The position numbers and the translations under genes are program-made. Below are positions 3,097 through 63,786 of a stretch of 64,000 nucleotides of DNA, piece after piece (position 1 is the first letter of the stretch; each line of letters begins with the position of its first letter). Below the pieces are notes generated by a model, which did no database searches, was not told the origin of the DNA, and saw nothing but the letters and a program-made list of their open reading frames with translations. This DNA is from Lachnospiraceae bacterium (lineage in GTDB: Bacteria > Bacillota > Clostridia > Lachnospirales > Lachnospiraceae), in NCBI GenBank assembly GCA_017520425.1, contig JAFXFO010000017.1, forward strand, positions 62,001-126,000, in the 5' to 3' direction.

Positions 3097-3347
3097 TTGG
3101 ACATATACTCAAAAAGTCGATGGAAATATCCAAAAACATCTCATTTTAGCGCGGATTTGCCTATTATAGAGAGATGTTTGGGCATATAGAAAATAATTGA
3201 CTGAAAATGTCCACGAAACGAGGCTATCTTTGGACATATGAGGAAGATTATTTTGTATATATCCAAAACACCGGGAATAATGGCCGAAACCACCAAGAAA
3301 TGACATTTTTTTGGATATTTCTTGTGAGAAAATTTGTATATGTCCAA
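3097..3347. repeat. 251-bp imperfect palindrome built from TTTGGACATAT words
   Basis: The gap 3073-3383 is filled by nested inverted repeats. The outer arms are TTGGACATATAC (3097-3108) and its exact complement (3336-3347). A second perfect 14-bp pair lies at 3123-3136 / 3308-3321. A 21-bp pair with few mismatches lies at 3177-3197 / 3247-3267, and the apex stem ATGTCCA/TGGACAT at 3207-3213 / 3231-3237. As a side effect the word TTTGGACATAT occurs about eight times in alternating orientation. The right arm ends about 25 bases before the ribosome site of the next gene. The centre differs from the other palindromes in the window. Confidence 0.8.
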
Positions 3348-6600: not shown

Positions 6601-7448
6601 GCTACGGAGATAAAATAGGAATCGTATGTTGTTCCAACGGACAAAAAGTCACTTATAAGGACAAGCTTCAACGGCTGGAGGAAACCCTGAAGGAAATGGG
6701 GCTGCAGCCGGTGTTCAGCGACTATATCTATGAGAAAGAGGGTCCTTCCTGCGGGACGGCTAAGGAGCGGGCAGAAGCCCTGATGGATTTTTACAGGGAT
6801 GATGAAATAAAGGGGATTTTTGATATTTCCGGCGGAGACCTTGCCAATGGGGTGTTGCCCTATCTGGATTATGAGGTTATCGCAGGCAGTTCCAAGCTGT
6901 TTTGGGGCTATAGTGATCTGACCACTCTTATCAATGCCATATATCATAAGACGGGAAGGCCTTCTGTTTTGTACCAGATCCGCAATCTCATATATGACCA
7001 TAAGGAAGTGCAAATAGCGGATTTTAAGAACACGGTTCTGGAGAATGGGACGGCTTTGTTTCGACCGGAGTATAAGTTTATTCAGAAAAACAGAATGCAG
7101 GGAATCCTGGTAGGCGGTAATATCCGGTGCTTCCTGAAACTGGCAGGGACGGAATATATGCCGGACCTTAAGGGGAAGATACTTCTTTTGGAAGGCTTGT
7201 CAGGAACGGTTGACAAGATGGAGACTTATCTGTGTCAGCTACAGCAATTAGGTGCCTTTGAAAGCACAGCAGGTATCCTGCTGGGTACCTTTACGGAGAT
7301 GGAGAGAGAACATTGCATTCCAACCATAGAAACATTGGTGAAGACGAAGGCAGGCAAGGATTTGCCCATAGCGGTAACCAAGGAAATCGGCCACGGAACC
7401 GATTCCAGGGGGATTGTAATCGGGAAGGAAATATGTTTGGAGGAGTAA
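6594..7448 (+). CDS. S66 family LD-carboxypeptidase homologue
   Basis: This 284-residue protein matches the LdcA/MccF (S66) family. It has an N-terminal nucleophile-elbow region (FDISGGDLANGVLPYLDYE, residues 77-95), a glycine-rich GILVGGNIRCFLKLAGT, LLLEGLSGTVDKME and a C-terminal EIGHGTDSRG with the expected His. Family enzymes cleave L,D bonds in murein tetrapeptide or inactivate microcin-like nucleotides. In the usual GGYGS-type motif the nucleophile Ser would align with Ala 84 here, so activity is uncertain. Two bases separate its stop from the ankyrin gene. Confidence 0.8.
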   Translation: MLSYGDKIGIVCCSNGQKVTYKDKLQRLEETLKEMGLQPVFSDYIYEKEGPSCGTAKERAEALMDFYRDDEIKGIFDISGGDLANGVLPYLDYEVIAGSSKLFWGYSDLTTLINAIYHKTGRPSVLYQIRNLIYDHKEVQIADFKNTVLENGTALFRPEYKFIQKNRMQGILVGGNIRCFLKLAGTEYMPDLKGKILLLEGLSGTVDKMETYLCQLQQLGAFESTAGILLGTFTEMEREHCIPTIETLVKTKAGKDLPIAVTKEIGHGTDSRGIVIGKEICLEE

Positions 7449-13367: not shown

Positions 13368-14033
13368 ATGAGTTATTTTGTGGCATTTTTAGAGGGAATC
13401 ATTACTTTTATTTCCCCTTGTATACTACCCATGCTACCGCTGTACATTTCCTATTTTGCCAATGGAGAAAATGACAAAAAGAAAACAGCATTCAATGCAC
13501 TGGGTTTTATCTTGGGTTTTACCATTGTCTTTGTACTGTTGGGAGCCTTTGCGGGAGCATTAGGAGGATTACTGCAAAAGTATCAGACCGCAGTGAATAT
13601 CATAACAGGTGGTATCGTGGTCATCTTAGGTCTGAATTTTACAGGCATCATCCGTATCGGCTTTTTAAATGGTACCAAGAAGCTGCAAGTGCAGATTCAG
13701 AAGGTGCATTTTACCACATCGGTACTGTTTGGTATGGTTTTTGCCATCGGCTATACCCCCTGTGTAGGGGCGTTCCTTGGGTCTGCTTTGATGATGGCCT
13801 CCCAGCGTGGAACCATGGCAGCCGGAATCCTGATGCTGGTACTCTATTCGGCGGGCTTGGGCATTCCCTTTTTCATAAGCGCCCTGCTCATCGACCGTCT
13901 GAAAGCCACCTTTCAGGTTATCAAAAGCCACTACCGGGTCATCAACCTGGGATGCGGCATTTTCCTCATAGCGATGGGAATACTTATGATGACAGGCACT
14001 TTCGGATATTTGATGAGACTGTTGAGTGTGTGA
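13368..14033 (+). CDS. ccdA: Cytochrome c biogenesis / thiol-reductant transporter CcdA
   Basis: This is a 221-residue membrane protein with six hydrophobic segments and the paired Cys of the family: SPCILPMLP (Cys 18) and GYTPCVGAFLG (Cys 132). CcdA passes reducing equivalents from cytoplasmic thioredoxin across the membrane to extracytoplasmic thiol proteins. The thioredoxin-like gene after the 14042-14277 palindrome is its likely partner. No cytochrome c genes are visible, so a general redox role outside the cell is more likely. Confidence 0.9.
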   Translation: MSYFVAFLEGIITFISPCILPMLPLYISYFANGENDKKKTAFNALGFILGFTIVFVLLGAFAGALGGLLQKYQTAVNIITGGIVVILGLNFTGIIRIGFLNGTKKLQVQIQKVHFTTSVLFGMVFAIGYTPCVGAFLGSALMMASQRGTMAAGILMLVLYSAGLGIPFFISALLIDRLKATFQVIKSHYRVINLGCGIFLIAMGILMMTGTFGYLMRLLSV

Positions 14034-14041
14034 TGAAATAC

Positions 14042-14277
14042 GCCCATTTACTTGGTTGTACCTTGTAGTATTTGGTAAAGGCAAGCAGGAACATAACATC
14101 CTACCGCAGGGCGCTCTCGCTTCGTGCCAAACGTAGCGGCACTAAGCTCGTGACGAAACAAGTTTCGTCTTAAAACCTCGCTAAGGGCCGACGTTTGGCA
14201 AGACCTGCTTGTAGGAAATTATGTCCCCACTTGCCGAAGTTCTGCTTAATTCATTTGGCACATCCAAGCAAATGGGC
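14042..14277 (+). repeat. 236-bp palindrome with conserved core (copy A of a structured repeat family)
   Basis: The gap between ccdA and the thioredoxin-like gene folds almost end to end. The outer arms are GCCCATTTaCTTGG (14042-14055) and its near-exact complement (14264-14277), with GGCAAG/CTTGCC (14080-14085 / 14230-14235) inside. Within them lies a 134-bp unit, 14091-14224, with ends ACATAA/TTATGT, CCTAC/GTAGG and GCAGG/CCTGC, and stem GCCAAACGT/ACGTTTGGC (14126-14134 / 14191-14199). The apex is GACGAAAC-AA-GTTTCGTC (14152-14169). The unpaired words CGCTCTCGCTT, CTAAGCTCG and CCTCGCTAAG recur in the other copies. Here the core reads in the plus direction. Confidence 0.9.
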
Positions 14278-14302: not shown

Positions 14303-14977
14303 ATGAAAAAGTATGTGAAGTTAGTCTTAAGCATTGTCCTCTTTGTGAGCTTTATGGTAGGTGTAATGATTTTGTACAGAAAGCTGGCAGAGGATCATAA
14401 ACCGGGGCAGAATCTGGTGGTGGAAAACCGGGAAAATGGCATTATTTCAGCAGATAAGGGAACCGACTCGAAAGATGAAGCATCCGGGCAGAACGATGCA
14501 CCGGCACCCCACACTTCCAATGCACCGGAAGAAACCAAGCAGGAAGCAGAGGTTTCCATGGCAGAGGATTTTGCCATGACCAATGAAGCCGGAGAAGAAG
14601 TTCGTTTGCTGGATTTTAAGGGAAAGCCTATCATCCTAAACTTCTGGGCCAGCTGGTGCGGTCCCTGCAAGGCGGAGCTGCCGGATTTTCAGGCGGCTTA
14701 CGAAAAGTATGGGGAGGATGTACAGTTTGTCCTGCTGAATATGACTGACGGACGTCAGGAGACGGTGGATACGGCTCGTAAATTTATGGAGAAAGAAGGA
14801 TATTCCATGCCGCTGTATTTTGATACGGTGGAGATGCAGGGTGCCTATACCTATGGAGTCAGTGCGATACCCACTACCTTTTTTATCAGTGCAGAAGGCG
14901 AAATGATTGCCTATGCCGCGGGTATGCTGGACGCAGAAACCTTGGAATACGGGATATCTATGATTCTTTCAAAGTAA
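14303..14977 (+). CDS. TlpA/ResA-like membrane-anchored thioredoxin
   Basis: This 224-residue protein has an N-terminal signal anchor (residues 5-25) and a low-complexity linker rich in Asp, Ala and Pro (30-85). The thioredoxin fold carries WASWCGPCK (Cys 119, Cys 122) and the cis-Pro loop SAIPTTFF. It acts outside the membrane as a thiol-disulfide oxidoreductase, probably kept reduced by CcdA, whose gene lies upstream of the palindrome. The ATG follows ATGGAGAACG. Confidence 0.9.
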   Translation: MKKYVKLVLSIVLFVSFMVGVMILYRKLAEDHKPGQNLVVENRENGIISADKGTDSKDEASGQNDAPAPHTSNAPEETKQEAEVSMAEDFAMTNEAGEEVRLLDFKGKPIILNFWASWCGPCKAELPDFQAAYEKYGEDVQFVLLNMTDGRQETVDTARKFMEKEGYSMPLYFDTVEMQGAYTYGVSAIPTTFFISAEGEMIAYAAGMLDAETLEYGISMILSK

Positions 14978-25967: not shown

Positions 25968-25988
25968 ATATACCCCCATGGGGTATAT
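25968..25988 (+). promoter_or_regulatory. CsoR-type operator
   Basis: ATATACCCCCATGGGGTATAT is a pseudo-palindrome with C and G runs around a central CATG, the form of known CsoR operators. It begins three bases after the -10 box, covering the transcription start, so apo-CsoR bound here would block the operon until Cu(I) releases it. Confidence 0.8.
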
Positions 25989-26007
25989 TGAGAAGGAAGT
26001 GAAAACC

Positions 26008-26316
26008 ATGAATGAAGATAAAAGGACTTGCTGCTGCGAGAAAACAACCAAGCGTGCCCCCCAGGAGCAGAGGCAGTTAATCAATCGTCTAAACCGTATC
26101 GAGGGGCAGATTCGCGGTATCCGTAATATGCTGGAGAAGGATGCTTACTGTGCGGATATTCTGGTACAGTCGGCAGCCGTAAATGCGGCAGTCAATGCTT
26201 TCAACAAGGAGCTGCTGGCCAGTCATATCAAGGGCTGCGTGGCCAGAGACATCCGGAAGGGCAATGATGAAGTTATCGACGAGCTGGTTATTACTTTGCA
26301 GAAACTGATGAAGTAA
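26008..26316 (+). CDS. csoR: Copper-sensing transcriptional repressor CsoR
   Basis: This 102-residue protein is all helical, with the CsoR/FrmR fold. The NRLNRIEGQIRGIRNM helix and metal ligands Cys 48 (AYCADIL), His 73 and Cys 77 (SHIKGC) match the Cu(I) C-H-C set. The N-terminal CCC triplet is an extra feature. The ATG at 26008 is chosen with AAGGAAG; an in-frame ATG at 25978 lies inside the operator and cannot be the start. It is cotranscribed with copA across the 26322-26605 palindrome. Confidence 0.92.
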   Translation: MNEDKRTCCCEKTTKRAPQEQRQLINRLNRIEGQIRGIRNMLEKDAYCADILVQSAAVNAAVNAFNKELLASHIKGCVARDIRKGNDEVIDELVITLQKLMK

Positions 26317-26321
26317 TGGTA

Positions 26322-26605
26322 CCCGGACAACAACGGCACAAATAGGAGATGAATTGCTGATTTGTACCTGATTATGGATTTATTACAGGCAGTTGGGAAC
26401 ATAATTTCCTACAAGCAGGTCTTGCAAAACGTCAGCCCTTAGCGAGGTTTTAAGACGAAGCTTGCTTCGTCACGAGCTTAGTGCTGCTATGTTTTGCACG
26501 AAGCGAGAGCGCCCTGCGGTAGGATGTTATGTTTCTGACTGCCCTTAAGATTGGTACCCGGACAAATCAGCAATTCAAAGCCAAGACATTCTCTTGTTGT
26601 CCGGG
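26322..26605 (-). repeat. 284-bp palindrome with conserved core (copy B) between csoR and copA
   Basis: The outer arms CCCGGACAACAA (26322-26333) and its exact complement (26594-26605) enclose a perfect 15-bp pair, GAATTGCTGATTTGT (26351-26365 with 26562-26576), and GGCAGT/ACTGCC. Inside is the same 134-bp unit as at 14091, in reverse orientation (26399-26532), with stem TGCAAAAC/GTTTTGCA (26423-26430 / 26491-26498) and apex GACGAAGC-TT-GCTTCGTC (26454-26471). GGTACCCGGACAA also occurs twice as a direct repeat (about 26318 and 26553). It ends a few bases before the copA ribosome site. Confidence 0.9.
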
Positions 26606-26622: not shown

Positions 26623-29196
26623 ATGGAACAATATACAGTGACCGGCATGAGCTGTGCGGCCTGCAGTGCCAGGGTGGAAAAGGCTGTGAAGCAGGTGCCC
26701 GGTGTAATGGTTTGTAGCGTGAATTTGCTGACCGGCGATATGGGTGTGGAAGGAACGGCTACACCGGAGGAAATCGTAGCTGCTGTGGAAAAGGCGGGGT
26801 ATGGTGCCTCAGTAAAAAAGCAAAAGAAAAGTGGAGCAGGTGTGTCCGATGAGAGAACCGGAGCGAGTCAGGAAGACCTTTTGGCAGATAGGGAAACACC
26901 GAAACTGAAAAAAAGATTGATAGCCTCCCTTGGCTTTCTGGTAGTACTTATGTATGTGTCCATGGGACATGTGATGTGGGGCTGGCCGATGCCCGGATTT
27001 TTCGAAGACAATCCGGTGGCAATCGCCTTGGTGCAGTTACTGCTGACCATAGCAGTGATGGTAATCAATCAGAAGTTTTTTGTTAGCGGCTTCAAAGGCT
27101 TACTTCACAGAGCACCGAATATGGATACATTGGTGGCGTTAGGGTCGGGGGCGTCCTTTGTGTACAGTGCGGTGGTGCTATTTCTGATGACAGGAGCCCG
27201 GGCAAGGGGTGACCTGCAAGGAGCAGAGCACTATTTGCATGAGCTGTATTTTGAGTCGGCCGCCATGATTTTGACATTGATTACCGTGGGGAAGATGCTG
27301 GAGGCCCGCTCCAAAGGCAAAACCACGGATGCATTAAAGGGGCTGATGAAGCTGGCACCGAAGACAGCTACCCTGCTTGTGGACGGTCAGGAGCAGGAGG
27401 TGCCCATAGAGCAGGTGAAAAAGGGTGATGTGTTTGTAGTGCGCCCCGGTGAAAATATCCCCGTAGATGGAAAAGTACTGGAAGGTAGCAGTGCCGTAAA
27501 TGAGTCTTCCCTGACCGGAGAAAGCATTCCGGTGGATAAGGGAGTCGGTGACAGGGTTTCCGCAGGTACCATAAATCAGTCGGGGTATCTGCGTTGCGAA
27601 GCCATTCGGGTGGGTGAGGATACTACTTTGGCCCGGATTATACAAATGGTCAGCGACGGGGCAGCTACCAAGGCACCTATTGCCAAGGTGGCAGACAAGG
27701 TATCCGGTATCTTCGTGCCGGCGGTACTGTTGATTGCTTTGGTCACGTTGGGAGGATGGTTGATAGCCGGAGAATCCATGGGATTCGCCCTGGCCCGAAG
27801 CATCTCCGTGCTGGTCATCAGTTGTCCCTGTGCCCTGGGACTGGCCACCCCGGTGGCTATTATGGTAGGAAGCGGCGTAGGTGCCCGTCACGGCATCCTG
27901 TTTAAGACAGCGGCTTCTTTGGAGGAGACCGGAAAGGCGAAAATCGTGGTGCTGGACAAAACCGGTACCATTACGGCAGGAGTTCCTCGGGTTACCGATA
28001 TATTACCTGCAGAGAGAGTTGCCGGAGAAGAATTGCTTCGGTTGGCGGCTCTTTTGGAGGAAAAGAGTGAACATCCCTTGGCAAAGGCCATTATGGAGGA
28101 AGCCAAGAAGCAATTGAGGTCGGACATCGAGCAAGCAGAGGTGACGGATTTTCAAGCCTTGCCGGGCAACGGATTGACCGGCTTATACACAGGAAAAGTG
28201 CTTTGCGGTGGTAATGCGTCCTTTATAGAAAGCCGGATGCCCATACCGAAACACTTATCCGAACAAGCAAAAGACTTGGCACAGACAGGCAAGACGCCCT
28301 TATACTTTGCGTATGACGGAAGACTTCTGGGGATTATTGCAGTAGCAGATACCCTGAAGGAAGACAGCACTCAGGCGGTGCAGGAGTTGAAGGATATGGG
28401 CCTGCAGGTGGTGATGCTGACCGGAGACAATGAACAGACAGCAGAGGCCATTGCAAAAAAGGCCGGTGTGGACAAGGTCATAGCCGGTGTGCTTCCGGAG
28501 GGCAAAGAAAGAGCCATTCGTGAGCTGCAGAAACAGGGAAAGGTGATTATGGTAGGTGACGGAATTAACGATGCACCGGCCTTGGTGGCGGCAGATATGG
28601 GTATGGCTATCGGTGCCGGCACGGATGTGGCTGTGGATGCGGCGGAGGTGGTGCTGATGAAGAATAGCCTGCGGGACGTGGCAGCAGCCATCCGTTTAAG
28701 TCGCAGCACCTTACGAAACATTCATCAGAACCTGTTTTGGGCATTCTTTTACAATAGTATCGGAATCCCCTTGGCAGCAGGAGTATTCATCCCCATCCTG
28801 GGGTGGCAGCTAAATCCCATGTTTGGGGCAGCGGCCATGAGCTTATCCAGCTTTTGTGTGGTGAGTAACGCTTTGAGGTTAAACCTATGCAAAATATATG
28901 GACCGAAGATGCAAACGGAAAGTACGGAAGAAACCATTTTGTCGGAAACGGTTTCGAATCAACAAATAGAAAGTGAGGAAAAAACAATGAAGAAAACCAT
29001 GAAAATCGAAGGTATGATGTGTGGTCACTGTGAGGCCAGAGTGAAAAAGGTGCTGGAGGCACTGGAGCAGGTGGAGATGGCAGAGGTGAGCTATCAGGAG
29101 GGAACTGCAATAGTAACGCTGAAAACACCTATTGCCGATGAGGATTTAAAGAAGATTATAGAGGATCAGGATTATAAAGTTTTAGAGATTTTTTAA
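26623..29196 (+). CDS. copA: Copper-exporting P1B-type ATPase with N- and C-terminal HMA domains
   Basis: This is an 857-residue protein. The N-terminal HMA domain has GMSCAACS (Cys 11, Cys 14). The P-type core has CPC at 401-403, DKTGT at 445-449, SEHPLAKAI and [10 protein letters not shown], with about eight membrane helices. The core is followed by a short Ser/Glu linker and a second HMA domain, [14 protein letters not shown], from residue 789. The CPC motif marks Cu(I) export. A separate CopZ chaperone gene is absent; the C-terminal HMA looks like a fused CopZ. Ribosome site AAAGGATAG. Confidence 0.95.
28975..28989 (+). promoter_or_regulatory. Possible internal translation start for a CopZ-like domain
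   Basis: GAGG at 28975-28978 lies eight bases before an in-frame ATG at 28987 that begins [15 protein letters not shown]. Starting here would give a free 69-residue copper chaperone identical to the C-terminal HMA domain of CopA. Confidence 0.4.
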
Positions 29197-40200: not shown

Positions 40201-40263
40201 CTATTAAATATGAGGCGATTTTCATACAATCGTCGTAATCTGTTGCATTTTACAACTAAGTAA

Positions 40264-40422
40264 GGCTTTGAGGTGTTACCTATTATGTAATGCACTGTAT
40301 AAAAGCACAGATTTTCATACTTTGTATGTCATAGGCGGACATACCTGTCCGACAAATGACATACAAAGCAGGGAAAGATGTGTTTTATCCAGTGTGTGAA
40401 TAATAGGTAACATTTCGAAGCC
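40264..40422. repeat. 159-bp palindrome with a different core, before the dehydrogenase gene
   Basis: A 22-base outer arm (40264-40285) pairs with 40401-40422 with three mismatches and shares TGTTACCTATTA exactly. CACTGtATAAAAgCACA pairs with 40380-40396. A perfect 13-bp stem, CTTTGTATGTCAT (40320-40332) with 40356-40368, leads to an apex CGGACA-TACC-TGTCCG (40336-40351). The centre is unrelated to copies A-D. It ends 16 bases before the ribosome site of the next gene. Confidence 0.8.
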
Positions 40423-40452
40423 GTAAATAGGCATTGAAGGAGGAGAAACAGG

Positions 40453-41415
40453 ATGAAAATCGTTTCGCTGGAGCGTAACAGTGCAGGCACAGACATTTCC
40501 ATGGAGTGCTTTCAGGATTTCGGGGAAGTGATATATTATGGCAATACTACTACTAAGGAGCAGGTGAAGGAGAGGGTGAAAGAGGCAGAGATTATCATCG
40601 CCAACAAGTCGCCCCTGAATGAAGAGACCTTGAAGGACGCGCCTAATGTAAAGCTCATCTGCGAGCTGGCTACCGGCTATGACAATGTAGATTTGGCTTA
40701 CTGCAAGAGCCGCGGTATTACCGTTTGCAATGTGCGGGACTACTGTACCGGTATGGTGGCACAGCACACCATGACCCTGGCACTTTGCTTAAGCCAGAAG
40801 CTCTTTCACTATGATGATTACGTGAAGTCCGGAGCTTACAGCGCCCAGGACCGTTTTTCTAATTTTGATGTGCCTTTCTATGAGATGGAAGGCAAGACCT
40901 GGGGTATTGTAGGCATGGGTAATATCGGTAAGAAGGTGGCTCAGCTGGCCACTGCTTTTGGCTGTAAAGTGATTTTCCACTCCGTAACCGGCAAGAGCAC
41001 CTGCACGGATTATCCGCAGGTGGATAAGGACACCCTACTTAAAGAAAGTGACTTTTTGTCCCTGCATTGTCCTTTGAGCGATTTGTCCAGAGGATTTATT
41101 GATGCAGGAGCTTTGAAAAAGATGAAAAAGGCCGCCATTCTTATCAATGTAGCAAGAGGCCCTGTGGTAAATAACGCAGATTTGGCAGAAGCTTTGAAGA
41201 ATGGCGAAATCCTGGCAGCAGGCTTGGATGTCATCGAGGGGGAACCTTTGGAATTAACCAATCCCTTAAGTGAACTGAAGGACAGCAACCAGCTGATTAT
41301 CACCCCCCATCTTGCTTGGGCCAGCGTGGAAGCCCGCACAAGGTGCGTGGAAGGCGTGTACAAAAATATACAGGCATTCCTGGCCGGCACCCCCACCAAT
41401 GTGGTGAATCCTTGA
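40453..41415 (+). CDS. D-2-hydroxyacid dehydrogenase, NAD-dependent
   Basis: This 320-residue protein has the family layout: NAD fold WGIVGMGNIGKKVAQLATAFG, substrate Arg in NVARGPVV, the Glu in LDVIEGEPL and catalytic His in TPHLAWAS. It could be a glycerate- or lactate-type dehydrogenase; sequence alone does not settle the substrate. AAGGAGGAGAAACAGG precedes the ATG. It stands after a long palindrome and 81 bases before the GtrA gene. Confidence 0.9.
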   Translation: MKIVSLERNSAGTDISMECFQDFGEVIYYGNTTTKEQVKERVKEAEIIIANKSPLNEETLKDAPNVKLICELATGYDNVDLAYCKSRGITVCNVRDYCTGMVAQHTMTLALCLSQKLFHYDDYVKSGAYSAQDRFSNFDVPFYEMEGKTWGIVGMGNIGKKVAQLATAFGCKVIFHSVTGKSTCTDYPQVDKDTLLKESDFLSLHCPLSDLSRGFIDAGALKKMKKAAILINVARGPVVNNADLAEALKNGEILAAGLDVIEGEPLELTNPLSELKDSNQLIITPHLAWASVEARTRCVEGVYKNIQAFLAGTPTNVVNP

Positions 41416-51925: not shown

Positions 51926-52199
51926 TTACGAAAGTGGGAGAGCAGGGGTCGGATAATGTTCCAACGCAAGGCTCTTGCAAAACGTCAGCCCTTAGCGAGG
52001 TATTAGGCGAAACTTGTTTCGCCACGAGCTTAGTGCTGCTACGTTTTGGATGAAGCGAAGAAGAGAACGTCCGGCGACGTTCTCTAAAAGAATTGCTTCG
52101 CAATTCTTTTGGCACACACTACTATGCTCGCACAACCTTAATAACACAAGAAGGGTCTAAGTGGAATATTATCCGACCCCTGCTCTCCCACTTTCGTAA
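51926..52199 (-). repeat. 274-bp palindrome with conserved core and two side hairpins (copy C)
   Basis: The 37-bp terminal arms (51926-51962 and 52163-52199) match with one mismatch. The conserved core reads in reverse: stem CAAAACGT/ACGTTTTG (51978-51985 / 52041-52048) and apex GGCGAAAC-TT-GTTTCGCC (52006-52023). Only this copy carries two extra perfect hairpins on one side: AGAGAACGTC-CGGC-GACGTTCTCT (52062-52085) and AAAAGAATTGC-TTC-GCAATTCTTTT (52086-52110). It fills the gap between the LRR gene and luxS on the reverse strand. Confidence 0.9.
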
Positions 52200-58569: not shown

Positions 58570-61257
58570 ATGGCAGAGGAAGATTTAAGATTAACAGACC
58601 TGATAAGTGTTGATACATTACAGCTGATTCAAGATACCTTTTGTGATATGTGTAACATTGCTATAGGAATCACGGATGAGAATGGTGTAATGGTTACGGA
58701 AGGAGCCATGGCATCGGACTTCTGTCAGAATTATAATAAAAAATCACCCATTGGCAGGAAACGTTGTGAGCAATGTGACAAGTATGGTGGGGAATTGGCC
58801 TTGGAAAAGGGAATGTCGGTAACCTATCACTGTCATGCAGGATTGGTGGATTTTGCCGCGCCTATTATGGCACATGGCAAGAAAATAGGACATATTAATG
58901 GTGGGCAGGTTCGCACAGAAGAGCTGGATGAAAGGAAATTACGTCAAATAGCGAAAGAGATTGAGGTGGATCCTGATGGTTATGTGGAAGCTGCCAAGAA
59001 GATTCGTTATATAGAGAGGGATGAATTAGAGAAAGTTACAGGCTTTTTATATCAAATGTCCGGAATTATTTCAGAGATGGCATACGATCGGTATTCTCTG
59101 ATTCAGGCCTATGAAGAGGTAGAGCGGGCGGCACAGATGAAGTCGGACTTTCTGGCTAATATGAGTCATGAAATCAGAACGCCCATGAATGCAGTAATCG
59201 GTATGGCTGAGATGGCTCTCAGAGAGGATTTGCCTTCTGCTGCAAGAGGGTATGTGAGTCAGATTATTTCTTCCGGAAAGACGCTGTTAACCATTATCAA
59301 TGATATTCTGGATTTTTCAAAAATAGATGCCGGTAGAATGGATATTGAGGAAGAAGAATACGAGCCCATGTCTTTGGTAAATGACGTGGCGAATATTGTA
59401 AATACCCGAATTGGTGAAAAGGATGTAGAACTGATTCTGGATATTGCACCGAATTTACCGCGCAAGCTACTGGGAGATATTAACCGATTAAAGCAGGTCA
59501 TTATAAATCTGGCAAATAATGCTGTGAAGTTTACACGAAAAGGTCAGGTGGTGCTGAAGGTAGGATTTCGGAAGATATTGAAGGACGAAATCCGACTGGA
59601 AATCTCCGTACAGGATACGGGAATCGGTATCAAAGAGGAAGATATGCAAAGGCTGTTTGAAGCATTTCAGCAGTTAGACAGCAAGCGCAATCGTAATATC
59701 GAAGGCACCGGTTTGGGACTGGCTATATCTCATAGAATCGTTTCTCTTATGGGTGGCGAAATCTGGGTAGAAAGTGAGTATGAAAAGGGTAGTACCTTTT
59801 CGTTCTGGATTCCCCAAAAGATTTTTGATGAGAAGCCTTCTATCGTGGTAAAAGAGAAGGAGAACATATCGGCAGCAGGACTGGTTGCTAACGGATTTTT
59901 AAGAACTCATATAGAGAAAGATATGGGTTATCTGGGAATTCCTTATTTTTCATTGGAGTCAGAGGAGGATTTGGAGATTATTGCAGAGAAAAACATACCA
60001 TACTTCTTTGTGGGACAGGGTATGTTTTCACCTAAGGTAGAAGAGTTTGTAAAGAAGCATCCGGAAATCAAAACCATTTTGATGATTGATTTTAGAAATA
60101 CGGTTAAGCTGAATATCAGCAATCTGATGATTGTAAAGAAGCCGGTGTATGTATTAAATATCGCTTCCATACTGAATGGTGAAGATGTGAATACCGGATT
60201 CGGGTGTTCCGGTAACGATAATTTTGACTTTATAGCGCCGGAAGCAGAAGTATTGATTGTAGATGATAATGCCATCAATCTGACGGTAGCAGAAGGCTTG
60301 CTGGAACCCTTGCGCATGAAGATATCTACGGCCACCAGCGGAAAAGAAGCAGTAGAAATGATTTCAGAGAAGATGTATGATTTGATTTTCATGGATCATA
60401 TGATGCCGGAAATCGATGGTGTGGAAACCACTCATATCATTCGACGGTTCCATAGAGAGTATGATGATGTACCTATCATAGCTTTAACAGCCAATGCCGT
60501 AAGCGGTACCAAGGAAATGTTTATCCGAGAGGGTATGAATGATTTTGTGGCAAAGCCGATTGAAATGCGAACCATACTTTCCAAGCTGAAGACTTGGTTG
60601 CCTAAGCATAAGATTAAGAAGGTTTATGAAGAAGCAAATGAAGAAACCGGTCAGCAGGAAATAAAAGCGGTTTTAATCGATGGTTTAGATACGGAAGCAG
60701 CCATGAGACTTCTTGGAACGGAGAAGCTGTTTTGGGCTGTATTAAAGGACTATTATCAGGTGATTGAAAAGAAAGCAAAGCTGATTAAGCAGCTGGAGGA
60801 GGCTGAGGATTGGCACGGCTATACCATCGAAGTACATGCCCTGAAAAGTGCCTCCAAGCAGATAGGTGCTATGGAGTTGTCTGAAAAAGCCGCTCGTTTG
60901 GAGAAGGCAGGAAACGAAGAGGACGGAGAGCTGATTCATCAAAGTACCGATGAAATGCTTAATCTGTATCTGAGTTATCTGGAAATCCTGAGGCCTTATT
61001 TCCCGGAGGAAAATAAGGAGGTAGAGCCCAGTAAAATCATGTCACATCCGGAGCTTATGGGATACTTTGACAATATCCGTACCGCTATTGAAGAATTGGA
61101 TTTTGATGCCATGGAGTATGTACTGGAGGTTATGTCAGAGTATAAATATGAGGGACAGCACGCAGAGTATTTTGTACAGCTGAAAGAAGCTGTGGCCGAA
61201 TATGATGTGGATAAATGTGAAGAAGTGATGCAGATGTGGGAAAAAGCGAGTTGCTGA
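58570..61257 (+). CDS. PocR-domain hybrid sensor histidine kinase with HPt
   Basis: This 895-residue protein has no membrane segment. The PocR ligand domain covers residues 10-175, with Cys 52, Cys 66, Cys 69 and Cys 88. HisKA has NMSHEIRTPMNAVIGM (His 200). The HATPase has NLANNAVKFTRKGQ, DTGIGIKEED and GTGLGLAIS. A degenerate receiver covers about 440-550, and a full receiver has VLIVDDNAINL and LIFMDHMMPEIDG. A C-terminal HPt has VHALKSASKQIGAM. PocR domains bind small hydrophobic ligands such as 1,2-propanediol, so this is a cytoplasmic chemosensor phosphorelay. Confidence 0.93.
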   Translation: MAEEDLRLTDLISVDTLQLIQDTFCDMCNIAIGITDENGVMVTEGAMASDFCQNYNKKSPIGRKRCEQCDKYGGELALEKGMSVTYHCHAGLVDFAAPIMAHGKKIGHINGGQVRTEELDERKLRQIAKEIEVDPDGYVEAAKKIRYIERDELEKVTGFLYQMSGIISEMAYDRYSLIQAYEEVERAAQMKSDFLANMSHEIRTPMNAVIGMAEMALREDLPSAARGYVSQIISSGKTLLTIINDILDFSKIDAGRMDIEEEEYEPMSLVNDVANIVNTRIGEKDVELILDIAPNLPRKLLGDINRLKQVIINLANNAVKFTRKGQVVLKVGFRKILKDEIRLEISVQDTGIGIKEEDMQRLFEAFQQLDSKRNRNIEGTGLGLAISHRIVSLMGGEIWVESEYEKGSTFSFWIPQKIFDEKPSIVVKEKENISAAGLVANGFLRTHIEKDMGYLGIPYFSLESEEDLEIIAEKNIPYFFVGQGMFSPKVEEFVKKHPEIKTILMIDFRNTVKLNISNLMIVKKPVYVLNIASILNGEDVNTGFGCSGNDNFDFIAPEAEVLIVDDNAINLTVAEGLLEPLRMKISTATSGKEAVEMISEKMYDLIFMDHMMPEIDGVETTHIIRRFHREYDDVPIIALTANAVSGTKEMFIREGMNDFVAKPIEMRTILSKLKTWLPKHKIKKVYEEANEETGQQEIKAVLIDGLDTEAAMRLLGTEKLFWAVLKDYYQVIEKKAKLIKQLEEAEDWHGYTIEVHALKSASKQIGAMELSEKAARLEKAGNEEDGELIHQSTDEMLNLYLSYLEILRPYFPEENKEVEPSKIMSHPELMGYFDNIRTAIEELDFDAMEYVLEVMSEYKYEGQHAEYFVQLKEAVAEYDVDKCEEVMQMWEKASC

Positions 61258-61273: not shown

Positions 61274-61462
61274 ATACAAAGAAACCGGCATGGCTCGGTC
61301 ATATATATCCTATTTGGACACGCTCTCGCTTGGATGAATTACGTAGCGGACACTAAGCTCGTGACGAAGCAAGCTTCGTCTTACTACCTCGCTAAGTGCC
61401 GACGAATTCATACAGTCCTGCATTAGGATATATATCGGCCCGGACCATGCCGGTTTCTGTAT
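61274..61462 (+). repeat. 189-bp palindrome with conserved core (copy D) between convergent genes
   Basis: The outer arms are ATACA plus GAAACCGGCATGG (61281-61293) with CCATGCCGGTTTC plus TGTAT (61445-61462). A perfect 12-bp ATATATATCCTA pair follows (61301-61312 / 61424-61435). The stem ATGAATT/AATTCAT lies at 61334-61340 / 61405-61411 and the apex GACGAAGC-AA-GCTTCGTC at 61363-61380. The core words are those of copies A-C, in plus orientation. It ends one base before the stop codon of the convergent gene and may act as a terminator for both. Confidence 0.9.
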
Positions 61463-61463
61463 A

Positions 61464-63569
61464 TTAATGGACTTGATACAACACCACATCCCCACTCTCG
61501 AACGCCGGTGTGAACATTGCCTGCAGTGCTTCTTCATTCACTGCGTAGGAGCTGCGTTCGAAGCTACTGACCAAGACATAGTCCACAGCATATTCTTCAA
61601 ACAGGTGCAGGCCGGAAACAGGGTATTCATACATTTGGCGGACCTGTTCTTTGCGCTCCGTGGTGTCCACACCATGGTAGTACAGGAAGGTGTCTGCTCC
61701 GCAGACCAGATTGCGGCCGGTCAGGGAGGCAATCTCATTGTTGTGACGGGTGTTGGTCAGAATCACCGCATCCGGTGCAGTGTTTTCTTCGATGTATTTG
61801 GCCAGTTCCACATATTGGGTTCCGTACAGCTGGTACTCGGATACCGCTTCCCTGCCCAGAGTAAGAATGCCGGACAGCAGGGAGAAAAACAACACACACC
61901 CTGCCAACAATCTGGCACCACCTAAATCTTTTACTTTTCTATAGAGTTCCATGCTGTAATCCGCAGCAATCACACATAAGAATAAATAGGCAATATAGAG
62001 TAATTTGTTATTATCGTACACATTGGGCTGGAATACCATCAGCTCTATGACAAACCAGATGACTGCCACAGGCATAGTCAGAGCGGAAGCCACCTTTCGG
62101 CGGGCACAGATGCCGGCCAGTCCTAAGAGCAAGGGCAGTCCTAAATTTTTCAGATAAAACCAAGGGTAGAAGTCCCCCTGATTGCCCCAGTTAAAATGTC
62201 CACGCAGCATATTGGCATTGCCGATCACATGGCCGAAGGTCCAGAACAGCAGCTGGGGAAGGGCCAGTAGCAATACGCATCCCAGATAAATGCCCCAGGT
62301 TTGTAGGATGTGCTTCCAACCGCCAGCGGTGATATGGCATATGAGCAGATAGGCTCCGTAAAAGACGCAGGCGACGATGCCCATTACGCAGAAAATCAGC
62401 AAATCCTTCTCATGAATCTGTCCCTTTTTCAGCCAGCTTTGCAACAGACACATGGCAACAACAAAGGCTAACAGAAGCAAGCCTGTGGGAAGAGGGTGTC
62501 GGGTTTCGCCGGCTTGACTGTTATGAAGATAAGTCAGAAGCCAGGCAGCACTGACCAGTCCCATACCTAAAAAGGAATGGGTGTGTATCATGGGTAAGGC
62601 ACTGACCAGAATGCCTGCGGGCAGGAAATACTCTTTTCTTTCCTGAAAAACTGCCTTGTATAAAAGCCAGATGGCCGGGAACAGTACTGCATAGCCAAAT
62701 AAGGTGGCACGTTGGGGCAGGAACATGTCCGCGATCACATTGACCCAGCGGATATTGTGTTCTACCAGATTGGTGGGTGTGGTATAAAAGCCGGTGAAAA
62801 TATCCTTTAGAGTATAGCCGCCCTCCCGGCTCCAATTGATAAAGTAAAAGAAGCCCAGGCCGCCGTTTAGGAAAAAGAACAGGTAGGTCAGCAGAGCCTT
62901 GGCCCTGGAACGAAGCAGGGTTTGAGCCAGCAGAAAAACACTGCCCAATATCTGTCCAAAGGCTGCAATCATGGGCAAGATATAAGCATAGCGTAAGGAT
63001 GCCCCCATCAAATAAATGCCGGAGGAAATACTGTCGGATAAAAAGGGATAGGACAGTCTGGCACCGGGAAACAGGGAGTATTCCGGTGGGAAAGTCCCCT
63101 GAACCGCGATACTGGTAATAAAGCCCAGATGCATATTCATATCCCCGTAGGTACATTGGCCCGTCAGCATGGCGCCGTTTTCTGCCAAAGGTATGGTATG
63201 AGTATTCAGCAGGTACACCCAAAATAACATGGTAATGCCTGCACCCATGAGAAATACCTTATGGTAGGAAAGCTGTCCAATCAAGGTGCGCAGAGTGGGA
63301 TTACCGGACCTGTCCCCACGCAGGCTCCAAAATAAAAGAGGTAAGCCTGCCACCAATGCCAGCATATGGGCCAGGATGGAAAAGTCAAAGAAAAATGCAA
63401 AAAGCACCGGTATCCATTGCAATAGCACCGAACCGGTCACGCTTCCCAGCAAAGCCTTGGTAAGAGGGCTTTCTTTTTTTAGTATTTTCGACATCACGAA
63501 AATGCCCACTATTTGAAAATATAAAAAATAAAGGGTACCCAACAGATTCCCCAGAGTACTGCCAAACAT
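61464..63569 (-). CDS. Large polytopic membrane protein, GT-C glycosyltransferase-like
   Basis: This 701-residue protein has about 14 hydrophobic segments and a soluble C-terminal domain (about 585-701). The first large loop carries CTYGDMNMHLGFI followed by FPPEYSLFPGARLSYPFLSD, an acidic-His arrangement like the catalytic loop of GT-C enzymes that use polyprenyl-phosphate sugars. This is inference. The ATG at 63569 is chosen with a perfect AGGAGG six bases upstream; the frame continues back to 63722 without a site. Confidence 0.75.
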   Translation of the reverse strand: MFGSTLGNLLGTLYFLYFQIVGIFVMSKILKKESPLTKALLGSVTGSVLLQWIPVLFAFFFDFSILAHMLALVAGLPLLFWSLRGDRSGNPTLRTLIGQLSYHKVFLMGAGITMLFWVYLLNTHTIPLAENGAMLTGQCTYGDMNMHLGFITSIAVQGTFPPEYSLFPGARLSYPFLSDSISSGIYLMGASLRYAYILPMIAAFGQILGSVFLLAQTLLRSRAKALLTYLFFFLNGGLGFFYFINWSREGGYTLKDIFTGFYTTPTNLVEHNIRWVNVIADMFLPQRATLFGYAVLFPAIWLLYKAVFQERKEYFLPAGILVSALPMIHTHSFLGMGLVSAAWLLTYLHNSQAGETRHPLPTGLLLLAFVVAMCLLQSWLKKGQIHEKDLLIFCVMGIVACVFYGAYLLICHITAGGWKHILQTWGIYLGCVLLLALPQLLFWTFGHVIGNANMLRGHFNWGNQGDFYPWFYLKNLGLPLLLGLAGICARRKVASALTMPVAVIWFVIELMVFQPNVYDNNKLLYIAYLFLCVIAADYSMELYRKVKDLGGARLLAGCVLFFSLLSGILTLGREAVSEYQLYGTQYVELAKYIEENTAPDAVILTNTRHNNEIASLTGRNLVCGADTFLYYHGVDTTERKEQVRQMYEYPVSGLHLFEEYAVDYVLVSSFERSSYAVNEEALQAMFTPAFESGDVVLYQVH

Positions 63570-63678
63570 AATATGCCTCCTGTATCGCATGGCAGTATGC
63601 GCCATGCACGTTGAAAAGAATAGGGATAGGCTTAGTATACCACCGGTGAGGGGAAAAAGACAGTGAAAAATAGGGGAG

Positions 63679-63716
63679 CTTAAAAAAGTCTTAAAGAATT
63701 TTAAAGGTATCTTAAA
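63679..63716. promoter_or_regulatory. Four helical-phase CTTAAA direct repeats
   Basis: CTTAAA-type words begin at 63679, 63690, 63700 and 63711, spaced 11, 10 and 11 bases. Such phased direct repeats are typical sites for OmpR/PhoB-family regulators. They lie between the divergent genes at 63569 and 63787. Confidence 0.45.
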
Positions 63717-63786
63717 ACACATTTGAGGAAGAATGCGTTATTATCTTATTTGTAGAGAAAGAACTTTGCAGAAAGGATGAGAAGAA

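Follow-up and report, generated by a model that had tools for sequence, protein, structure and literature searches.

Palindromes between genes are usually taken for terminators or REPs. Among other repeats of this general kind, MITEs have terminal inverted repeats and target duplications as their defining features, and copies of ERIC retain sequence as well as structure. REPs are defined in the excerpt available of PMC3733652 as palindromes of 20 to 40 bp with a terminal GTAG or CGTC tag, and those tagged with CGTC are, like the family described here, without a known transposase in that account. ERIC is an intergenic repeat of 127 bp, and the BOX elements of Streptococcus pneumoniae are presented as composite, modular, and structured intergenic repeats in which the number of internal modules varies (PMC3049150, in the sections available). 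In mitochondria, the double-hairpin elements of Allomyces and the GC clusters of yeast are thought to be mobile, and palindromic units in yeast merge and shuffle at homologous sites (excerpts of PMC4478555 and PMC2800124). Palindromic candidate RNAs have also been reported in human microbiomes (PMC8040213, in excerpt).

Here we describe alpha, a family of long intergenic hairpins with four copies in a window of 64,000 nucleotides (the whole stretch of DNA that was analyzed) from a Lachnospiraceae genome. Alpha is a variant of the known non-autonomous intergenic palindromic repeats, unusual in that its centre rather than its ends is conserved and in that it is nested. It resembles REP/BIME elements in being a many-copy, non-autonomous intergenic palindrome, but it measures about 115 to 135 bp (190 to 285 bp including its arms), several times the length of a REP, has a CGTARC bulge that is internal rather than a terminal tag, carries conserved bulges and nested elements, and does not track Y1. 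With MITEs it shares small size, non-autonomy, an intergenic position, and palindromic form, but it lacks conserved terminal inverted repeats; its pattern is the reverse of theirs, as the sequence-only reading of the window had proposed, with a conserved centre and arms that are locus-specific in 27 of 28 copies. Compared by description only, ERIC is similar to alpha in length but is enterobacterial, BOX has boxB in tandem between boxA and boxC whereas alpha is nested in other elements, and the mitochondrial hairpins are organellar and, in the case of the yeast clusters, also shorter. No published description or name of the alpha repeat was found in the literature searched, and the portions available of PMC12306157 (RepRanger) and PMC3733652 contain no text mention of Lachnospir- or Clostridi- names.

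Four palindromes in the window

Direct reading of the sequence confirmed four giant palindromes, and in folding comparisons with 200 shuffles each, none of the shuffles folded as well in any of the four cases. Copy A (positions 14042 to 14277, plus strand; z -6.6) lies between co-directional ORFs at 13368-14033 and 14303-14977, and copy B (26322 to 26605, minus strand; z -9.0) lies between co-directional ORFs at 25978-26316 and 26623-29196, each nearly filling its gap. Copy C (51926 to 52199, minus strand; z -13.5), whose outer arms are long and perfect, likewise nearly fills a co-directional gap if the gene to its left begins at ATG 51890, and copy D (61274 to 61462, plus strand; z -8.0) lies between convergent ORFs at 58570-61257 and 61464-63722. 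The core words are common to all four, as first proposed: CACTAAGCTCGTGNCGAA occurs four times in the window (with up to 3 mismatches) against 0.08 expected, and ACCTCGCTAAG can be read in A, B, C, and D. A, B, and D carry the 5' bulge word CGCTCTCGCTT intact, but in C it is split by another element, delta (about 52058 to 52152, minus strand). The two-base loop described at the apex holds as the centre of a perfect repeat but folds as a four-base loop in A to D.

The genome of the window (G000, 2.9 Mb) is a draft, as are the others used here. A pattern search of G000 returned 19 hits, of which 15 contain the core word and the other four, with 3 mismatches, lack it, and a covariance model, R1, was built on 14 of the 15 core-word copies, L005 being excluded because of its insertion (L-numbers label loci or sequence stretches). 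R1 places the alpha element at 14092 to 14225 in copy A (plus strand, 147 bits; G000:C11:76092-76225), at 26398 to 26531 in copy B (minus strand, 143.7 bits), and at 61301 to 61436 in copy D (plus strand, 138 bits), which is of the TATATCC subtype; the R1 match in copy C runs from 51950 to 52087 (minus strand, 100.3 bits), with its 5' part displaced by delta.

The outer arms had been described as different at every locus, which holds for all but one of the 28 G000 copies tested, the 28th (L042) lying outside the sequence compared. Among the matches listed, arms matched their own partner arm, the delta element, stray 17- to 18-mers, or a single outer-arm word common to L043 and L355, and no donor for arm copying appeared elsewhere in the G000 sequence compared. 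That the arms always pair proved too strong a statement: arm-to-arm scores exceed the 95th percentile of cross-locus pairs in 20 of 28 copies and the 99th percentile in 13, in a test that omits the 6 nt adjoining the element and that, where delta has been inserted (copy C being an example), puts the 5' end in the wrong place.

Anatomy, covariation, and distribution of alpha

From the outside in, alpha consists of the locus-specific arms, a TATATCC-like stem, a GGAC-like stem, the conserved 5' bulge, a further stem, the CGTARC bulge, a covarying stem, a helix (CTARRC/GYYAAG) that contains an A.A mismatch, and an apical loop (TCG...ACCTC) in which an extra hairpin may stand; within alpha subtypes, the only shared end is the short TATATCC-like one. 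In 85 aligned copies, 93.0% of cells are paired and both-sided changes occur in 26 of 31 pairs, in an alignment that was fitted to the model, which favours structure, and that includes related, non-independent copies. Both-sided changes were found in 360 cells, compared with a shuffled mean of 99.8, and sliding the partners by 1 to 3 columns left only 16 to 76 such cells. The stems of alpha covary, as those of structured RNAs do.

The conservation of the centre was also upheld, as a contrast between centre and outside rather than between loops and stems. The bulge has a mean column entropy of 0.62 bits, the apical loop one of 0.69, the inner stem one of 0.71, and the unpaired columns beside the inner stem one of 0.79, compared with 1.27 in the outer stem and 1.29 at the ends; when all unpaired columns are pooled, ends included, they stand at 1.03 versus 0.75 for paired columns. 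A scheme of constant loops and free stems was rejected as too simple: the whole centre is conserved, some inner stem pairs covary, and variability grows outwards. Conservation of the inner stem comes close to that of the loops (0.62 to 0.69 bits), so recognition of the loops only is not demanded. G.T mismatches outnumber A.C mismatches (63 versus 35 of 2270 cells; 35 versus 10 rows, p 0.0007), but one pair gives 24 of the G.T mismatches and the remainder stand at 39 versus 35 of 2185 cells. Because copies occur in both orientations relative to genes, this excess decides little between RNA and DNA.

In G000, R1 detects 35 copies at E <1e-7, a number that rises to 41 when E up to 1 is allowed. 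In a search of 61 genomes at E 0.001 with stricter filters, it matched 23 of the 37 genomes from the genus, a set that includes G000 and has 0 to 55 copies per genome, and none of 24 from other families, so that the further copies expected in this and related genomes are present. In a species-level collection, at least 119 stretches matched a less strict apical pattern. Among the matches listed, three titles fall outside Clostridia by eye (Vulcanisaeta, Obscuribacterales, and Porphyromonas) and most others name Lachnospiraceae or one of its genera, several of them with rumen, colon, or rectum; R1 at E 0.001 matches 61 of the 119 stretches listed (49 of 100 plus 12 of 19), a few of them partially or at a contig end. 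The family has no counterpart in Rfam, which gave no match over the window at the gathering score and, when 15 loci with copies were searched at E up to 5, returned RNase P, tRNA, and one hit far below the gathering score, none of them in the element. Viral carriage was considered and rejected: 26 IMG/VR pattern hits yielded one model match (E 0.58), which we judged to be chance.

In several of 15 loci that were read, the apical unit stands in tandem at a spacing of about 44 to 48 bp or 101 bp. The shorter spacing was seen in other Lachnospiraceae or Clostridia records (L078, L079, L086, L119, L122, L132, L135, and L152), and in L132 and L152 the array lies just upstream of a gene that by eye resembles rplF. 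Three tandem 101-bp units, with the apical hairpin and a second type of hairpin, occupy about 3274 to 3501 of L124, upstream of a gene judged by eye. The tandem occurrence of the apical unit at other loci suggests that alpha may be part of a wider superfamily.

Orthologous sites and nested elements

The nearest relative found among 138 genomes of the genus, G087, is about 74 to 87% identical to G000 in the region of the window, and counterparts were sought with both flanks in 1.87 Mb of G000 and 0.65 Mb of G087. These were present for 17 of 24 G087 hits examined (28 hits in all) and for 13 of 30 G000 copies. One pair, L027/L249, was dropped as probable cross-binning, with 3135 identical bases in G000:C25 and G087:C79 in genomes that elsewhere differ by about 13 to 26%. 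At 19 distinct orthologous sites, compared between two genomes with changes not polarized by an outgroup, the same element was found at nine (L022/L255, which is window copy B, L024/L263, L026/L273, L041/L251, L044/L276, L048/L267, L310/L275, L314/L401, and L346/L402), a different subtype at three (L043/L257, L396/L403, and L034/L399, the last on the opposite strand), a shell without the inner hairpin at one (L381/L274), and an element in one genome only at six (window copy A, window copy C, L036/L364, L253/L331, L261/L317, and L400/L315, the last with flanks about 95% identical). Copy D was left out of the count because only one flank is collinear, and the gene end that matches it in G087 bears a different subtype.

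The nine shared sites indicate that many copies are old. The copy B orthologue in G087 lacks the apical hairpin and shows compensatory stem changes, and at L024/L263 the core is inverted between collinear flanks (score 69 reversed versus 1.5 collinear). Six same-element pairs have usable flanks, and in these identity is 79 to 93% in the core, 50 to 80% in the 40 bases outside it, and 65 to 90% in the flanks; the outer 40 bases are less identical than the core in all six pairs, and the core is more identical than the flanks in four.

The comparison for empty sites that the sequence-only reading had proposed thus gave six sites occupied in one genome only, and some hairpin stands at four of the empty counterparts and none at two, as judged against shuffles that, unlike those used for A to D, preserve single-base content only. 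At copy A the stretch from 14085 to 14247 (plus strand) is missing from G087, which has only a short hairpin there (z -2.8, 2 of 200 shuffles as low) with arms homologous to the outer arms of copy A. The empty site at L331 has a terminator-like hairpin (z -2.0, 6 of 200 shuffles), and those at L364 (z -4.6) and L315 (z -7.4) have other hairpins, whereas folding against shuffles gave no hairpin at the empty sites of copy C (z -0.4) and L317 (z 0.8). No target-site duplication for alpha is evident at copy A.

Nesting is seen most directly in delta, which adds about 90 bp net to the bulge of copy C and there has TTCTT flanking both sides, a single case. It also lies inside the alpha bulge at L314 and L355, and next to the bulge and reversed at L310; it is absent from the G087 orthologues of L314 and L310. 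At the sites compared (copy C, L314, and L310), and judged without an outgroup, a gain of delta is the simpler reading than a loss. Copy C has a further counterpart in L139, a contig of Lachnospiraceae bacterium isolate SIG331, with the same alpha and arms between flanks that are 85 to 90% identical. The two palindromes differ by one base, and the bulge is uninterrupted in L139 and delta-split in G000. Such near-identity of the palindrome between coding flanks of 85 to 90% identity looks like constraint. Stand-alone delta-like elements were observed at L311 16512, L294 13620 and 1728, and L296 8234, built of a GTGCGAGTACAGTAGTGG-like word, a GAATTGCGAAGCAATTC hairpin, and a second hairpin, and some end in a T-run.

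When 1.486 Mb of G000 was scanned for palindromes in which exact 10-mers cover 26 or more bases of arm, 19 were listed. Ten of them contain the alpha core, and copy A, whose arms are interrupted, is absent from the 19. The other nine are L355 (alpha plus delta), L296, L297, and window positions 40216-40462 (beta and gamma nested), two of epsilon (window positions 3097-3347 and L358), L295, and the tandem array L288, which is listed twice. Within the 1.486 Mb scanned, long arms of this sort are thus mostly a property of these elements. The nested giant palindrome at 40216 to 40462 has beta outside and gamma at its centre, TTTGTATGTCA...TGACATACAAA, with relatives at L296 14446-14624 and L297 4371-4723, and the epsilon palindrome at 3097 to 3347 is made of TTGGACATATAC words and has a relative at L358 10956-11208. 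Separately, a partly palindromic intergenic stretch of about 90 bp (L102, about 7322 to 7415, compared with L174) was found in one of two genomes that are 94% identical.

Mobility, selection, and template switching

We consider it somewhat probable that alpha is a non-autonomous mobile hairpin DNA that settles at the 3' ends of genes and hosts other hairpins, with its pairing maintained by template switching and/or selection. Alpha, itself a long imperfect hairpin, would settle intergenically at the 3' ends of genes, often at an existing hairpin or terminator, and its bulge and apical loop would then accept further hairpin elements, giving rise to Russian-doll palindromes. The centre (the CGCTCTCGCTT bulge, the CGTARC bulge, the inner stem, and the apical TCG...ACCTC) may be read by a mobilizing activity on single-stranded or cruciform DNA. 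Stem positions would be free to change while paired, with most change in the outer stem and arms, and pairing could be kept by replication template switching, in which arm is copied onto arm and the core can flip, by structural selection, or by both.

The earlier proposal of a mobile element that inserts into hairpins stands in part. Presence and absence at orthologous sites and differences in subtype argue for mobility, and the plain hairpin in the copy A orthologue and delta within the alpha bulge are consistent with insertion into hairpins, but this is not general, since two of the six empty sites (copy C and L317) have no hairpin. The nine shared sites of 19 and the near-identity of the copy C palindrome in L139 despite flanks of 85 to 90% also weigh against a mobile hairpin, as does the G.T excess that RNA pairing would give (39 versus 35 minus one pair). 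No target-site duplication has been established for alpha, the TTCTT around delta being one case, and neither a mobilizer nor an autonomous copy with an internal gene was found in the sequence searched. A half-element pattern gave 48 paired and 17 unpaired halves, the 17 being by eye complete elements missed by the pattern, and the ORFs between two inverted alpha copies at L074 are short. Our confidence is limited because the assemblies are drafts, there is one main comparison genome, changes are unpolarized, and no mobilizer was found.

It is rather unlikely, judging from sequence and position, that alpha is instead a functional RNA or DNA structure selected at each locus, such as an mRNA 3'-end stabilizer, processing site, or attenuator between the genes of an operon, with old copies sometimes lost. 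The strong covariation (26 of 31 pairs) and the compensatory changes in orthologous copies bear out in part the earlier suggestion of a structural element under selection, and the shared sites, the near-identity of copy C in L139, and the overall excess of G.T over A.C would all fit this explanation, but six sites are occupied in one genome only, three bear different subtypes, delta splits the conserved bulge, two sites have the core inverted (L024/L263) or on the opposite strand, and outside one pair there is no G.T excess. Position also bears on the question. When ORFs are called simply as the longest ones, a procedure that misplaces copy C, 28 of the 35 G000 copies comprise 14 in tandem contexts (between co-directional ORFs), 13 convergent, and 1 divergent, and the claim that orientation is not tied to transcription is only loosely true, with 11 antisense and 3 sense among the 14 tandem sites. 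In Clostridium cellulolyticum, transcript ratios are reported to be set by intergenic stem-loops (excerpt of PMC4423207), and by analogy a strong hairpin between co-directional genes could affect transcript ratios here, in keeping with a functional structure.

It is improbable that alpha is a neutral by-product of replication template switching, in which long hairpins are kept paired, extended, or inverted with no mobility or function of their own. Template switching has been reported to create and maintain hairpins and invert loops (PMC8794818, in excerpt) and to homogenize inverted-repeat arms and invert spacers (PMC8604942, in excerpt). The core inversion at L024/L263 and the locus-specific arms are what it would produce, but one conserved centre at 35 G000 sites and in many other Lachnospiraceae records would be left unexplained. 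As the keeper of arm pairing, template switching could not be separated from selection, and one, the other, or both may act.

Very improbable is a set of REP/BIME elements moved by a Y1 (RAYT) transposase: some of these intergenic palindromes form adjacent inverted pairs (L052 and L056) and the inner hairpin has at its foot a CGTAG similar to the GTAG tag of REPs, but alpha is several times longer than the 20 to 40 bp of REPs, and Y1_Tnp (PF01797; 13 of 38 genus genomes) is absent from five of six genomes with at least 20 copies (G005, G012, G017, G027, and G032, with 20 to 55 copies), is present in some genomes without alpha copies, and does not correlate with copy number (Spearman -0.09, p 0.60, 37 genomes). 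The linked Y1/RAYT transposase suggested earlier is thus unsupported. Reverse transcriptase (Spearman 0.15, p 0.36) and IS110 (Spearman 0.08, p 0.64) were also rejected as mobilizers in the same 37 genomes; in this comparison of three enzyme families, the counts for these two take in hits under the curated cut-off, and the copy numbers were obtained under stricter filters with a model derived from G000 copies, so that zeros may conceal divergent copies.

Extending the reading of alpha as a mobile hairpin, it is possible, and we put it forward tentatively, that Lachnospiraceae harbour a class of mobile DNA that would recognize the unpaired parts of extruded hairpins and insert hairpins there. 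The families alpha, beta, gamma, and delta would stack in this way, centre and pairing would be inherited, and a mobilizer acting in trans would lie outside the three enzyme families tested. Alpha combines a constant centre with outer stems that change yet pair, differs between genomes at orthologous sites, fills operon gaps, and is nested by other families. It offers a natural setting in which to test which of the two, selection or replication template switching, gives rise to compensatory stem changes, and it points to a mobilizing activity in Lachnospiraceae, which are common in gut and rumen.
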